DNA of 64,000 nt from Fimbriimonadaceae bacterium (lineage in GTDB: Bacteria; Armatimonadota; Fimbriimonadia; Fimbriimonadales; Fimbriimonadaceae). Each line of letters begins with the position of its first letter. The stretch's first letter is position 1. Both the position numbers and the translations under genes were made by a program. Below, in pieces: positions 44,372 to 49,880 of the stretch. Under the pieces are notes generated by a model, which was given only the letters and a program-made list of their open reading frames with translations, made no database searches and was not told the origin of the DNA. Where the stretch lies: the NCBI GenBank assembly GCA_019454105.1, contig CP075364.1, forward strand, positions 1,863,362 through 1,927,361, written 5' to 3'.

Positions 44372-44895
44372 TTGTACAAATCCGGCGTGGCGACCCGTTC
44401 GAGACCGGGTGACGCCCACAGCGCGTCGACCGGCCCCAGCAACGCTGATCCAGAAGATACCGTCACCTGGCCGCTCGCCTCGATGCGTCCTTTGGCCTCA
44501 GCATAGAAGACGCGCTGGGCCTTGAGAACAATCCCTCGGGCCTCGTCGGTCACCGTGACCTCGCCCTGAAGCGTGAGCGTGCGGGCTTTCTGGTCGACCT
44601 CGCCCGATGTCGCCTTGAACTTGCTCGCGGTCTGGCCGCCCTTGCGGATCTCGCCCGAGACGCCGCTCAACGCTCCCGAGGCGGCGCCCTCTTCGCCGAC
44701 TGTCATCTTGGAAGTCTCCGCCCGGACAACGTAAGCGACCTCACCGTCCTCGCCCCTCACCGTCACCTCGGGGCTTTCAGCGCGGATTTTGCGCTCGACG
44801 GCAGGAGACTCGGCCAAGGGTTTGGGGCCTGGAGTCACCCTCTGCGACGGGCCACAGCCAAGAGCCAGAGCGAGAGCGACCGGCCACAGCCTCAC
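44368..44895 (-). CDS. lptC: LptC-like lipoprotein
   Basis: A 175-residue protein whose GTG start overlaps the rlmN stop (GTGA). The N-terminus WPVALALALGCGPSQ has a lipobox (LALG-Cys), so it should be lipid-anchored, whereas classical LptC has a membrane helix. The remainder is a beta-rich LptC/LptA-type domain (EVTVRGEDGEVAYVV, then TLTLQGEVTVTDEARGIVL). It probably passes LPS from LptBF to LptA. A much longer open frame extends upstream but is the shadow of rlmN. Confidence 0.82.
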   Translation of the reverse strand: MRLWPVALALALGCGPSQRVTPGPKPLAESPAVERKIRAESPEVTVRGEDGEVAYVVRAETSKMTVGEEGAASGALSGVSGEIRKGGQTASKFKATSGEVDQKARTLTLQGEVTVTDEARGIVLKAQRVFYAEAKGRIEASGQVTVSSGSALLGPVDALWASPGLERVATPDLYK

Positions 44896-45965
44896 GGGGC
44901 CACCGTCAGCGGAGCCATCGGCCGTCGGCCGAAACGGCCCGCGTGCTGGCCCGCGAGCTGACCGCAGGCGGCGGCGATGTCGTGCCCCCGTTCGACCCTC
45001 TCCGTCACGTTCACGCGACGGGACTCGAGGATCCTCCTGAACTCGGCCACACGCTCGCGGCCCGGCCTCCGAAAGCCGTTGGGCGTTTCGACATAGTTGA
45101 ACGGGATGAGGTTGACCACGCAACTCAGACCTTTGACCAGACGCGCCAAATGTTCCGCCTGTTCGGGCGTATCGTTCGTTTGGTCTATCAAGAGGTATTC
45201 GAAGGTCACTTTCCTGCCCGTGGCGGCCTGATAGCGGCGCATCGCCTCCACGACCTCGGCCACCGGCCAGCGGTTGTTCACCGGCATGAGCCGCGACCGC
45301 ACTTCGTCGATCGGTGAGTGAAGAGACAGAGCGAGGTGGATTGGTAACCGCTCCGCCGCCAGCCGGTCGATTTGCGGAACCAGGCCAACGGTCGAGACGG
45401 TGATGTGCCTGAGGCTCAGGCCAACTTCGGTCGATAGGATCCTGATCGCGGCCAGGAGGTTTTCGAGGTTCAGGAGCGGCTCGCCCATCCCCATGAAGAC
45501 GACATGGCCCACGCGGCGCGGGGAGAAGCGCTGGAGCAGCAGGTATTGGCCGACGATCTCGCCGACGGTGAGGTTGCGGTCGAACCCTCCCAAACCGGTC
45601 GCGCAGAAGGTACAGGCCATCGGGCAGCCAACCTGGCTCGACAGACAGCACGACACTCGGTCGGCGTAAGGGAGCAGCACACACTCGTAGACCTGGCCGT
45701 CGCCTTTGTGCACCAGGAGTTTGTCGACACCATCGGACGAGGTGCGGTGGTCGGCGACCTGGAGCGGGCTCACCGCGAAGTCTTCAGAGAGCTTCTGGCG
45801 CAGCGCGGCAGGGAGATCGGACATCTCCTCGAAGCTCTCGGCTTGCTTGCGGTAGACCCATCCCGCGATTTGCGATCCCCGGAACGGCCTTTCGCCAAGG
45901 CCGACGACGATGTCTTGGATCTGGCGGGACGTCAAGCCGACCAAAGCCGTCCGCTGGTCGGGCAT
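44892..45965 (-). CDS. rlmN: 23S rRNA (A2503-C2) / tRNA methyltransferase RlmN
   Basis: Radical SAM enzyme that methylates C2 of A2503 in 23S rRNA and A37 in some tRNAs. The 357 residues include the Fe-S motif CPMACTFCATG, the GMGEPLLN motif, and the SAM-binding VSTVGLVPQIDRLA. The C-terminal CGQLAGQH carries the methyl-accepting Cys. It leads the seven-gene unit with lptC, lptA, lptB, lptF, the DUF3084 gene and the yqgF-like gene. A TAAGCT hexamer lies 8 bases before the ATG. Confidence 0.95.
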   Translation of the reverse strand: MPDQRTALVGLTSRQIQDIVVGLGERPFRGSQIAGWVYRKQAESFEEMSDLPAALRQKLSEDFAVSPLQVADHRTSSDGVDKLLVHKGDGQVYECVLLPYADRVSCCLSSQVGCPMACTFCATGLGGFDRNLTVGEIVGQYLLLQRFSPRRVGHVVFMGMGEPLLNLENLLAAIRILSTEVGLSLRHITVSTVGLVPQIDRLAAERLPIHLALSLHSPIDEVRSRLMPVNNRWPVAEVVEAMRRYQAATGRKVTFEYLLIDQTNDTPEQAEHLARLVKGLSCVVNLIPFNYVETPNGFRRPGRERVAEFRRILESRRVNVTERVERGHDIAAACGQLAGQHAGRFGRRPMAPLTVAP

Positions 45966-45973
45966 AGGGAGGA

Positions 45974-45979
45974 AGCTTA
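45974..45979 (-). promoter_or_regulatory. Probable leaderless -10 element of the rlmN-lpt operon
   Basis: TAAGCT (minus strand) ends 8 bases before the rlmN ATG. Confidence 0.4.
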
Positions 45980-46084
45980 CCTGGAGTCCGACAGAGATCC
46001 CGTCTAGGGAGCGAGAGACGAATGACGACCCGTGAACTGATCGAAAGTCAATCACATGATGGCGTGCACCGTACCTGGTGTGTT

Positions 46085-46095: not shown

Positions 46096-46172
46096 TTTTG
46101 TGTTTGGCTACGTCCATGCCCGCGCCCTCGACTTCGAACTTCAAAACCAGCACTCTTACTGTCGAGAACCTT

Positions 46173-46195
46173 GGGGGGGGGGGGGGGGATAACGT
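46173..46195 (+). promoter_or_regulatory. G16 homopolymer abutting a -10-like hexamer (cassette 1 promoter)
   Basis: Sixteen consecutive G (46173-46188), one A, then TAACGT (46190-46195), which ends 9 bases before the ATG of the Cys-rich gene. The tract fills the region where the -35/-10 spacer should be. With a TTGGGG -35-like start at 46171, the spacer is now 13 bases, shorter than optimal. Confidence 0.55.
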
Positions 46196-46204
46196 CGCCT
46201 TGAA

Positions 46205-46561
46205 ATGAAGACGTTGATTTTCTCGGGGCTCCTTTCGACAGGATTACTAAGTGCCGTCATCGCGACATCAATGGTCGCTCTTGATGAAAGACCACCAGCC
46301 TTTAAGCCCAGTAGTGATACTTGCGTCGCTTCCAGGAGCTACGAGGAGCCGCAAGCCCCTTGCGCGGCATCGGGCGTGACGGACGCCTGTCTCAAGGAGT
46401 GCACCCCAGTACCAGGAAACGCTTCATACATGGATCGTCCGAGCGGTAATCCAAAGTGCGCATCGGAATCGAACCCCAAGTGCATTTGGATCGAATGTCG
46501 ACGATGGGCCTACGACAACCCAAACTGCAATCCGCCGTCTGTGAGTGAGATCCCGACGTAA
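46205..46561 (+). CDS. Small secreted protein with eight cysteines (cassette 1)
   Basis: A 118-residue protein I do not recognise. It has a signal peptide (KTLIFSGLLSTGLLSAVIA) and a mature part of about 92 residues with cysteines at 40, 53, 62, 66, 85, 93, 98 and 108. An even number in an exported protein suggests up to four disulfides. It is rich in Pro, Asn and Ser. It starts right behind the G16 tract, and a pseudopilin gene follows 85 bases downstream on the same strand. The same pairing recurs at 48449. Confidence 0.7.
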   Translation: MKTLIFSGLLSTGLLSAVIATSMVALDERPPAFKPSSDTCVASRSYEEPQAPCAASGVTDACLKECTPVPGNASYMDRPSGNPKCASESNPKCIWIECRRWAYDNPNCNPPSVSEIPT

Positions 46562-46646: not shown

Positions 46647-47267
46647 ATGATTCAGTCCAAGTCGCGATCTCGCGGACTCACCATCATTGAGCTTCTTGTG
46701 ACGATCACCCTCGTGGTTCTCCTAGCGGGTCTGACAGCGACAGGAATCTTGCAAGCCGTCAAACATGCTAAGAAGTCCGCGTGTTTGAATAATCTGGTCA
46801 CCATCGGCAAGGCTCTCGAGATCTACGTATCGGACCATGACGGCTACTTCCCATCGCCTCCGTGGTTCGCTCAAAGAGGACGCAGACCCATGATTCAAGA
46901 GTTCAAAGACTCCTTAATGCCCTATGGGACTTCTGAAACGACTTTTTACTCACCGTCCGACCCATACGCCCGACAAGAAGTCATGGGCGAGATGGTCGAC
47001 CGAAGGCTTTCGAGCTACGCTATGCACTTCCACGTGCTGTTCAAGTCAGAGTTCACCGCAGACGGCTCCATGGTCTTTGCCCCAGCGAGGGTTTCTGACC
47101 CTTCCGACTTCATGGTCTTTCTCGTCGACACGATCCTACGCTTTGACGAGTCGACTGGCCGCTGGAACAGATGGTCGCCCCAAGGCCAGACGGTCAACGC
47201 GCTCTACTTGGACGGTCGTGCCAAGGCCATTCCGTTTCCGGAACCCGAACTGAAGCCCCGACGTTGA
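46647..47267 (+). CDS. Type IV pilin-like protein (cassette 1)
   Basis: A 206-residue prepilin. The 10-residue basic leader (IQSKSRSRG) is cleaved before LTIIELLVTITLVVLLAGLT, with Glu at +5 and a long hydrophobic helix. The conserved pilin stalk ACLNNLVTIGKALEIYVSDH follows, and near the C-terminus VNALYLDGRAKAIPF resembles the H-X9-DG processing-associated motif. The start at 46647 gives the standard leader; the frame is open upstream. After the TGA stop the same frame remains open for 37 codons to TAA at 47381, including a Trp-rich stretch. Confidence 0.82.
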   Translation: MIQSKSRSRGLTIIELLVTITLVVLLAGLTATGILQAVKHAKKSACLNNLVTIGKALEIYVSDHDGYFPSPPWFAQRGRRPMIQEFKDSLMPYGTSETTFYSPSDPYARQEVMGEMVDRRLSSYAMHFHVLFKSEFTADGSMVFAPARVSDPSDFMVFLVDTILRFDESTGRWNRWSPQGQTVNALYLDGRAKAIPFPEPELKPRR

Positions 47268-48233: not shown

Positions 48234-48421
48234 CAATATGGCAAGGTGCGACCTCGCGAATGGGGGCCGTCCTGTCAGGGCCCTGCTGACCTTAACAGAT
48301 CATAGGCGACTTTGCACTGCCTCACTCGGATCTGTCCTGAGGGTCTGTTCAAACCCACCGTTGCCGTGAATCGAACTTGACAGTATTTTTACTTGTTTCG
48401 CTCGATGAAGTTGCGATTCGC

Positions 48422-48442
48422 GGGGGGAGGGGGGGGTAACTT
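48422..48442 (+). promoter_or_regulatory. G6-A-G8 tract abutting a -10-like hexamer (cassette 2 promoter)
   Basis: GGGGGGAGGGGGGGG (48422-48436) is followed at once by TAACTT (48437-48442), which ends 6 bases before the ATG at 48449. A TTGCGA (48411-48416) lies 20 bases upstream of the hexamer as a possible -35 box, so loss of 2-3 G would give normal spacing. Confidence 0.55.
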
Positions 48443-48448
48443 GCGAGT

Positions 48449-48802
48449 ATGAAAAGACTAGTAATATTCGTAGTAGGTGCGCTCATGGTGACGGTTCACG
48501 CGTCCGTCGGGGTCGATGCCTTTCACTCAGTTCCGGTCAGAGACGCCACCGGAACTGAGCAACGGATTCCGCCCTGCCAGAACTGTGAGAGTGAACCGAG
48601 CGACTCTTATTCCCAGAATTTCACTCAGTACAGCGCAAATTGCTCGCTTTGGCCGTTCAATTGGCAGGAAAAGTGGCGGAAAGACTTCCAGGTCTTCTTC
48701 TGTGAAAACGGCTTCTACCAAGTGTGCACCGATGTCGTTCTGACCGGGTGCGGCATCCCCCAACAGGCGGCCGATTGCTCCGGAAGCTGCGTCCCACAGT
48801 GA
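48449..48802 (+). CDS. Small secreted protein with eight cysteines (cassette 2)
   Basis: A 117-residue protein I do not recognise. The signal peptide is KRLVIFVVGALMVTVHASVG. The mature part has cysteines at 43, 46, 65, 85, 93, 101, 110 and 114 and an aromatic stretch CSLWPFNWQEKWRKDFQVFF. Length and cysteine number match the cassette 1 protein, but the cysteine spacing differs, so common descent is uncertain. The next gene, a pseudopilin, begins 2 bases after the stop. Confidence 0.72.
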   Translation: MKRLVIFVVGALMVTVHASVGVDAFHSVPVRDATGTEQRIPPCQNCESEPSDSYSQNFTQYSANCSLWPFNWQEKWRKDFQVFFCENGFYQVCTDVVLTGCGIPQQAADCSGSCVPQ

Positions 48803-48804
48803 CC

Positions 48805-49500
48805 ATGAGAAGTCCGCGTGGGCCCCGAGGGTTGACCCTCCTTGAAGTCGCGGTCAGCGTAGCCATTCTCGTGACCTTGGTTGCCGTCCTCGTGCCCGTC
48901 GTGGCGAAATCTAAGCGACAGGCAAAAGTCGGGTCGGACAACGAGGCGATGCGTCACATCGGACAAGCGGCCGCCCTGTACACAGACCAGCACGGCCCGC
49001 ACGTCCGGTCTTGCTTTGAGCTCTACGAAGCCGGCATGGTGCCGAAGGAACTCCTCTCTGGACTCAGCGACCCCACCGAACTTGGATGGTCGAACGTCGT
49101 CATGCTCGAAACGAAAAAGCATCTGGGCAACTCGGCTAAGGACAAGGCCATCTATCCGCGAGACTACCGGATCAGCTATATCGGTGCCCGAGAAGGGGGA
49201 GGCAGCGACCGTTGGCTGGCGCGGGCGGAGCCTGGTTCCGTCGGGTGGCTAGTGAATATCTCCTCGTCTGATCCTGAGATTCCTCAGCAACAGTACAATA
49301 CGCTGAGGCGAGTAGGGCACTACTATCGGTTGCTCCGTGACGGGGCCGTCGTGAAACGACAGCACATCATTGAGAATTTTGACCAAGGAAGGTCTTGCGT
49401 CAGCTCCCGTTGGTTCTACGGCGATTTCTCGACTCAAGATCGCCGTCAAACCTGTGAAGACATCATGAACGGGAGGCCTCCCAAGGAATCCGAACAGTGA
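48805..49500 (+). CDS. Type IV pilin-like protein (cassette 2)
   Basis: A 231-residue prepilin with leader RSPRGPRG cleaved before LTLLEVAVSVAILVTLVAVL, Glu at +5, and a pilin stalk (KVGSDNEAMRHIGQAAALY). The soluble domain has three cysteines (RSCFELYEAG, GRSCVSSRWFY, RRQTCEDIM), unusual for these pilins. It starts 2 bases after the Cys-rich gene, and its stop overlaps the next GTG start (GTGA), so four genes are read as one unit. Confidence 0.82.
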   Translation: MRSPRGPRGLTLLEVAVSVAILVTLVAVLVPVVAKSKRQAKVGSDNEAMRHIGQAAALYTDQHGPHVRSCFELYEAGMVPKELLSGLSDPTELGWSNVVMLETKKHLGNSAKDKAIYPRDYRISYIGAREGGGSDRWLARAEPGSVGWLVNISSSDPEIPQQQYNTLRRVGHYYRLLRDGAVVKRQHIIENFDQGRSCVSSRWFYGDFSTQDRRQTCEDIMNGRPPKESEQ

Positions 49501-49880
49501 TCAAACCCATCCGAGACCTGCTGGCTCCCTTCGTCATTTCGATCCTGCTCACCGTCTTCAGCCAGAGCGTTGTCGGGTTTTTGACCAATCTGGTTGTGGG
49601 AGCAACGACCGTGATCCTTTCGAACGCTGTCTCGCAACGGATCGCGCCTAACAAGAAGGAGCCCAAGACGACCCTCCTTGCGGCCCTGCTCGCAGGCCTA
49701 GCTTGGGGCGGCGTGGTGTTGGTCGTCGGACTCATGCTAGGGCCTAGCGGCATCCCCACGAACCTTGTGCCTCTGGTGGCGCTTGGCGCCGGGATTCTCG
49801 GAGGGACGTACGTCGCCGTCGGACGCCTTCTCGAATGGGCCGTCCATCGTTTCTGGGGGAAGGCAAAGTTCGCTCAGTGA
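49497..49880 (+). CDS. Membrane protein in cassette 2 (unknown function)
   Basis: A 127-residue protein with an amphipathic start and about three membrane segments (LAPFVISILLTVFSQSVVGF; TTLLAALLAGLAWGGVVLVVGL; LVPLVALGAGILGGTYVAVG, each trimmed to its core). It has no domain I recognise. It starts with GTG overlapping the pilin stop, and its own stop overlaps the next GTG, so it is translationally coupled on both sides. Confidence 0.65.
   Translation: MIKPIRDLLAPFVISILLTVFSQSVVGFLTNLVVGATTVILSNAVSQRIAPNKKEPKTTLLAALLAGLAWGGVVLVVGLMLGPSGIPTNLVPLVALGAGILGGTYVAVGRLLEWAVHRFWGKAKFAQ

Follow-up and report, generated by a model that had tools for sequence, protein, structure and literature searches.

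A G16 run ahead of an exported-protein and prepilin cassette in a Fimbriimonadaceae bacterium as the probable site of slippage in a phase-variable leaderless promoter

Most known cases of simple-repeat phase variation come from host-adapted pathogens and commensals. Armatimonadota is a little-cultured phylum and, to our knowledge, not one known for pathogens. For this phylum, no account of phase variation or of repeats was found among the titles and opening abstract lines of the Fimbriimonas promoter literature and the part of the broader listings that was viewed. The closest described promoters are those of Neisseria meningitidis porA, fetA and opc, in which unstable homopolymers lie between the -10 and -35 elements, as given in the accessible part of the source (PMC2791445). 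Homopolymeric tracts within coding genes have also been proposed as a general regulatory mechanism of prokaryotes (PMC2831843); the portion of this source that was consulted speaks of tracts within coding genes and mentions neither the promoter-spacer class nor the protein families described below. Here, comparison of related loci suggests that a G16 run in a Fimbriimonadaceae genome (G000, analysed as one assembly) quite probably serves as slippage tract to a leaderless, phase-variable promoter of the porA/opc kind known from Neisseria, within a many-locus contingency system in Armatimonadota. The core of the first-pass annotation, which had proposed phase variation of the cassette behind this run, appears well supported by that comparison, whereas its promoter details are not.

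The window, by which we mean the whole 64-kb stretch of DNA that was analysed, holds just two G or C runs that reach a length of eight or more, one ahead of each of two cassettes, and these two cassettes are also the only positives among 278 repeat tiles (2/278). The plan of the cassettes is a small exported-looking protein (judged by eye) first and a prepilin-like gene after it. Cassette 1, which has an RlmN gene (44892-46055) as its neighbour on the opposite strand, comprises the following features:

46162-46167, + strand: TCGAGA, best -35-like hexamer 5' of the G-run, 4/6 positions matching, spacer 22 nt; weak, perhaps chance
46173-46188, + strand: G16, candidate tract for slippage in the cassette 1 promoter spacer, from the sequence and the genome-wide list of runs
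46190-46195, + strand: TAACGT, -10-like hexamer 9 nt 5' of the ATG in leaderless geometry, with TANNNT likewise placed in relatives
46205-46561, + strand: gene 1, 118-aa Cys-rich protein with a signal-peptide-like N-terminus (by eye) and no Pfam or NCBIfam family
46647-47267, + strand: gene 2, prepilin-like, N_methyl below the curated cut-off

Read 5' to 3', G16 is followed by A46189, TAACGT, nine bases and the ATG at 46205; the run had been described as lying directly before TAACGT, and run, hexamer and distance to the start codon stand as described, with the correction that one A intervenes. As to the idea that the run occupies a -35/-10 spacer, a -10-like TAACGT is present on its downstream side and the upstream candidate is weak: TCGAGA is the best hexamer over 14 spacings, a search in which chance would often yield a 4/6 match, and no good -35 or TTGAC-like hexamer was found in the upstream stretch inspected. 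A TTGGGG at the left edge of the run (46171-46176) does lie 13 bases from TAACGT, as claimed, but its proposed role as a -35 that a gain of four G would rescue was rejected, since in clear members of the class described below the -35 (TTGACA/T) sits 4-11 nt 5' of the run. The -35 of cassette 1 would thus be expected at that distance, and the run would have to shorten, not lengthen. If TCGAGA were real, G16 would need about five fewer G for a 17-nt spacer, and the cassette would now be OFF or weak; with no good -35, its present state is undecided or OFF.

In the mechanism proposed, a sigma-70-type -10 (TAACGT) nine nucleotides 5' of the ATG would let transcription begin on the start codon or beside it, leaving the run untranscribed, while G16 would set the distance from the -10 to a -35 on the far side of the run. 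Slippage during replication would alter the number of G, hence the spacer and the strength of the promoter, and strong transcription of the Cys-rich exported protein and the prepilin would be expected only at spacers of about 16-18 nt. A surface or secreted product of cassette 1 is possible, the first protein having a signal-peptide-like N-terminus (by eye) and a prepilin-like gene following it. AlphaFold2 gave the first protein a mean pLDDT of 42 from the single sequence, too low to use.

A G-tract in the same place had also been claimed for cassette 2, and indeed an interrupted run abuts its -10-like hexamer directly:

48411-48416, + strand: TTGCGA, candidate -35 of cassette 2, spacer 20 nt to TAACTT
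48422-48436, + strand: G6-A-G8, interrupted G-run of cassette 2, GGGGGG-A-GGGGGGGG
48437-48442, + strand: TAACTT, -10-like hexamer, 6 nt 5' of the ATG at 48449
48449-48802, + strand: gene 1, 117-aa Cys-rich protein, predicted to be exported
48805-49500, + strand: gene 2, prepilin-like
49497-49880, + strand: gene 3, 127-aa hydrophobic protein, probably membrane, overlapping the prepilin stop

The genome holds seven such cassettes, cassette 1 included, and loci of like build are numerous in the phylum. The first genes of the seven start at 46205 and 48449 in the window and at genome positions 1749424, 1755808, 2433297, 1205602 and 2015920, and are preceded by G16, G6AG8, G10, G10, G7, C8 and G11, respectively; five of the seven were found by searches for a run or a run plus hexamer, which biases the count of seven out of seven with runs. 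The stretch AAGTTGCGA is common to the candidate -35 region of cassette 2 and the region upstream of the run at 2433297. In L047 (G000:1743000-1760000), the end of flhA is repeated on the - strand at about 4750 and 6430 ahead of two neighbouring G-run loci, which is, judging by sequence, a likely sign of local duplication or insertion. The cassette at 2433297 is a paralogue of cassette 1, its first protein being related to that of cassette 1 (37% over 110 aa, E 9e-15), and it reads G7-TACGGT-6 nt-ATG. A search of the genome_contigs set for relatives of the cassette 1 protein elsewhere returned none; among 291 genomes the one strong match was this paralogue, with three weak matches elsewhere and no recognisable intact relative.

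In the whole 2.74-Mb single-contig genome, G16 is the longest G-run and the next is G11. Distinct runs on both strands number 30 at a length of at least 8, 15 at 9, 6 at 10 and 2 at 11, the last two being G16 and one G11, so that a promoter homopolymer of about 8 or more is present at cassette 1 and falls well beyond the genome's trend. All eight G9 matches in the window come from G16, a number reached by 3/100 dinucleotide shuffles (mean 2.09). This exceptional length, the missing TTGAC-like -35 and the A that keeps the run from being a clean neighbour of TANNNT are what would be expected if the promoter of cassette 1 had decayed and its run had grown without selection, the class as a whole being phase-variable. 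The weak -35 means that the promoter may be decayed; however, the first-gene reading frame is intact, a like-built paralogue exists and in a relative a G17 run stands behind a clear -35, and we regard this account as possible but unlikely. A switchable promoter is the preferred reading.

Among 291 Armatimonadota genomes, the pattern TTGAC-N(2-17)-G8-TANNNT gave 47 matches in 28 genomes, at 46 distinct places (two overlap) where a tract lies between -35 and -10, against 1 for the reversed control. The C8 version gave 2, both with an 11-nt spacer, against 1 for its control. In the host genome, TTGAC-N(1-15)-G6-N(0-10)-TANNNT matched 7 times against 0, and in the family G7-N(0-3)-TANNNT-N(5-9)-ATG matched 67 times (43 distinct places, 22/85 genomes) against 10. 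GGGGGG-TANNNT was rejected as a signature by itself, having 7 matches in the host genome and 7 in the control, without enrichment, and a loose spacer pattern in the family was noisy (101 versus 57 control matches, as sums), for which reason the tight patterns alone were used. Because the tight pattern is clean and its looser forms are much less so, the signal lies in a G-run touching the -10.

Within the family of the host, the tight pattern occurs at 21 places in 11/85 genomes, of which 20 were read (G090:C78 was left out). An ATG follows the -10 by 5-9 nt at 19 of these 20, the exception being G024:C5, and these leaderless-type places stand mostly ahead of genes for predicted exported proteins; outside the family the gene is usually farther from the -10. 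With the ATG this close, transcripts should be without a leader and the G-run should not be transcribed, and RNA-level roles of the run are unlikely if the transcript begins at the ATG. Leaderless promoters with TTGACA are rare in the two genomes in which they were counted (8 in G000, control 1; 7 in G090, control 2), and a G-run is carried by 2/8 and 3/7 of them, respectively. The class can be searched for as TTGACA-N8-G8+-TANNNT-N5-9-ATG. A prepilin gene downstream was absent behind 17 family promoters tested and belongs to the cassettes of this genome.

The spacers of the 20 family places range from 15 to 24 nt, 9 being 16-18 nt long and 11 falling outside these lengths. The ten non-tract leaderless promoters of G000 and G090 have spacers of 12, 17, 17, 17, 17, 18, 19, 19, 21 and 23 nt, of which the matches with 12 and 23 nt are probably chance. 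Most runs of the class are G8-G11. Duplicated promoters serve here only as a proxy for variation between cells or isolates, with paralogous runs of G9 and G17, G9 and G8, and G7 and G16. In G095, tandem paralogues share 60/74 nt before and 51/60 nt after runs of G17 and G9. In a G179 pair, with runs of G9 and G8, the far flanks differ and the stretch from -35 to -10 is the same. An inverted repeat (CCGG...GGTGAAAA) common to the upstream regions of both paralogous G095 promoters (L132, G095:C4) may be a terminator or may belong to the duplicated unit. The same contig carries three group II genes in a row with runs of G17, G9 and G8. Group II proteins are predicted to be exported, about 150 aa long and very divergent, with a conserved P-x-W motif and no Pfam family, and nearly all are encoded behind a G-run (A4: L010, L093, L128, L132, L134-L137, L197, L202, L204 and others).

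In the host genome, 13 of the 15 G or C runs of at least nine lie at the starts of exported-protein genes, in spacers or within signal peptides, so that several unrelated genes of this kind carry repeats at their starts; these placements were read by eye from open reading frames, with no gene prediction or SignalP. Eight runs precede a start codon (46173 in the window; 303567, 1190423, 1341008, 1563486, 1749424, 1755808 and 2015920 in the genome), and five lie in a signal peptide or just behind it (1216084, 1230901, 1353928, 1543110 and 2128429). The two exceptions are at 1222428 (not placed) and at 2031554, in a glycine loop inside a long gene. At three of the five, the long mature frame falls out of step with that of the signal peptide at the run, which is what an OFF phase would look like:

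G000:1216084 (L021): G9 inside a signal peptide
G000:1353928 (L030): C9 inside a signal peptide
G000:1543110 (L032): C10 inside a signal peptide

The mature sequence of the last starts GLTAEYFEN, which we take to be reminiscent of PA14 domains.

Group III proteins are about 370 aa long with MPxYFSGT near the N-terminus and have no Pfam family; Pfam searches with groups I, II and III yielded nothing beyond the prepilin N_methyl motif and two matches far below the cut-off. A group III query built from five G-run loci, in a profile search that is itself blind to repeats, found the group in 22 of 291 genomes. Outside the query set, 10/22 starts bear a strong repeat versus 0/184 tiles of the same loci, with thresholds that were fixed after examples had been viewed. 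In four of the ten the repeat is a G or C run of 8 or more, in three an 8-nt unit, and in one each a 5-nt unit, a 7-nt unit and CT; two of the 12 starts without a strong repeat have a 7-nt unit three times or a degenerate 8-nt array. One gene family thus has different repeat units in different species: spacer runs of G7-G9, TCGGT x6, 8-nt x4-5, 7-nt x6, CT x18 and G8 in a signal peptide. Where 8-nt, 5-nt, 7-nt or CT repeats directly follow the start codon or lie in the signal peptide (L241, G024:C37; L244, G024:C27; L245, G065:C12; L248, G050:C148; L254, G138:C26), they are likely translational switches. Conserved His-Gly and Asp-x-Cys positions of group III (e.g. L206:717-1808) form a pattern that we presume to recall clan CD peptidases such as caspases and gingipains; no profile or structure support for this likeness was obtained, no solved relative of the group was found, and AlphaFold2 reached a mean pLDDT of 30 from three sequences, too low to use. 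The strongest sign of selection for instability itself is that group III has a promoter run in one genus and, in other genera, coding repeats with different units.

The same comparisons weigh against a G-run that acts as a fixed promoter element of exported-protein genes, either a stiff spacer or a protein-binding site by the -10, with no switching. Such a site would be expected to be strand-specific and to abut the -10, as the run does at the 46 places in the phylum, and spacers outside the family are narrower, mostly 14-19 nt. It fits poorly with the 15-24 nt spread within the family, with duplicated promoters that differ as G9 and G17, with sister loci of the same genome whose run lies inside the signal peptide, three of them out of register with the mature protein, and with a sister family that uses 2-, 5-, 7- and 8-nt repeats instead. 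A binding site would neither move into coding sequence nor change its unit, and a fixed element is accordingly disfavoured and judged improbable.

Sixteen G in a row could in principle form a G-quadruplex or triplex, and such a fold could block or slow polymerase, so that length would act through structure and not through spacing. In every promoter case it is the coding strand that carries the run, which speaks for such a fold, but most runs of the class, at G8-G11, are too short for an intrastrand four-stranded fold and the consistent -35/-10 frame speaks for spacing, which makes this account very unlikely. Homopolymer lengths in assemblies may err by at least one base, and long G-runs often lie at draft contig ends (G016:C3:1-18, G021:C229:3-14, G004:C5:8-22, G038:C165:9-23), either because assembly breaks at real runs or through sequencing artefact, so that raw run counts are to be read accordingly. 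Surplus G from sequencing or assembly, to which these contig ends would point, are a scarcely credible source of a run that is interior to a single 2.74-Mb contig and whose build recurs in 11/85 family genomes with promoter elements and start codon in place.

Phase variation through a spacer G-run, as first proposed, is thus the best reading of the recurrence over controls, the spread of spacers, the differing runs of duplicated promoters and the unstable repeats of sister families. On the same comparative grounds, we lean towards a broader view, in which Armatimonadota would use slippage to switch prepilin cassettes and dozens of exported proteins from unknown families independently of one another. 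The slipping repeats would be the G-run spacers in leaderless promoters and, in sister genes, signal-peptide repeats, and families would have moved between kinds of switch in evolution. If true, this would be many-locus phase variation in a mostly free-living phylum, where phage, predators and neighbours would be enough to maintain it, and the system would mark which of these exported proteins face such pressures.

Compared with known systems, the promoter class described here resembles those of Neisseria porA, fetA and opc in having a homopolymer between -35 and -10, and the Neisseria genes encode surface proteins, as far as the part of the source consulted states (PMC2791445). Length variation and its effects on expression are proved in Neisseria and predicted for the present class. 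This class belongs to a different phylum, its run touches the -10, the start codon comes 5-9 nt on with no leader, all promoter cases have G on the coding strand where Neisseria has poly-G or poly-C, and the predicted products are exported proteins of unknown families and prepilins. The contingency loci of Campylobacter, Haemophilus and Neisseria that switch in the 5' coding region differ in their hosts, the present one not being known as a pathogen or commensal; they are matched by the sister loci described here, in which G or C runs or 2-8-nt repeats lie in signal peptides, some of them out of register.
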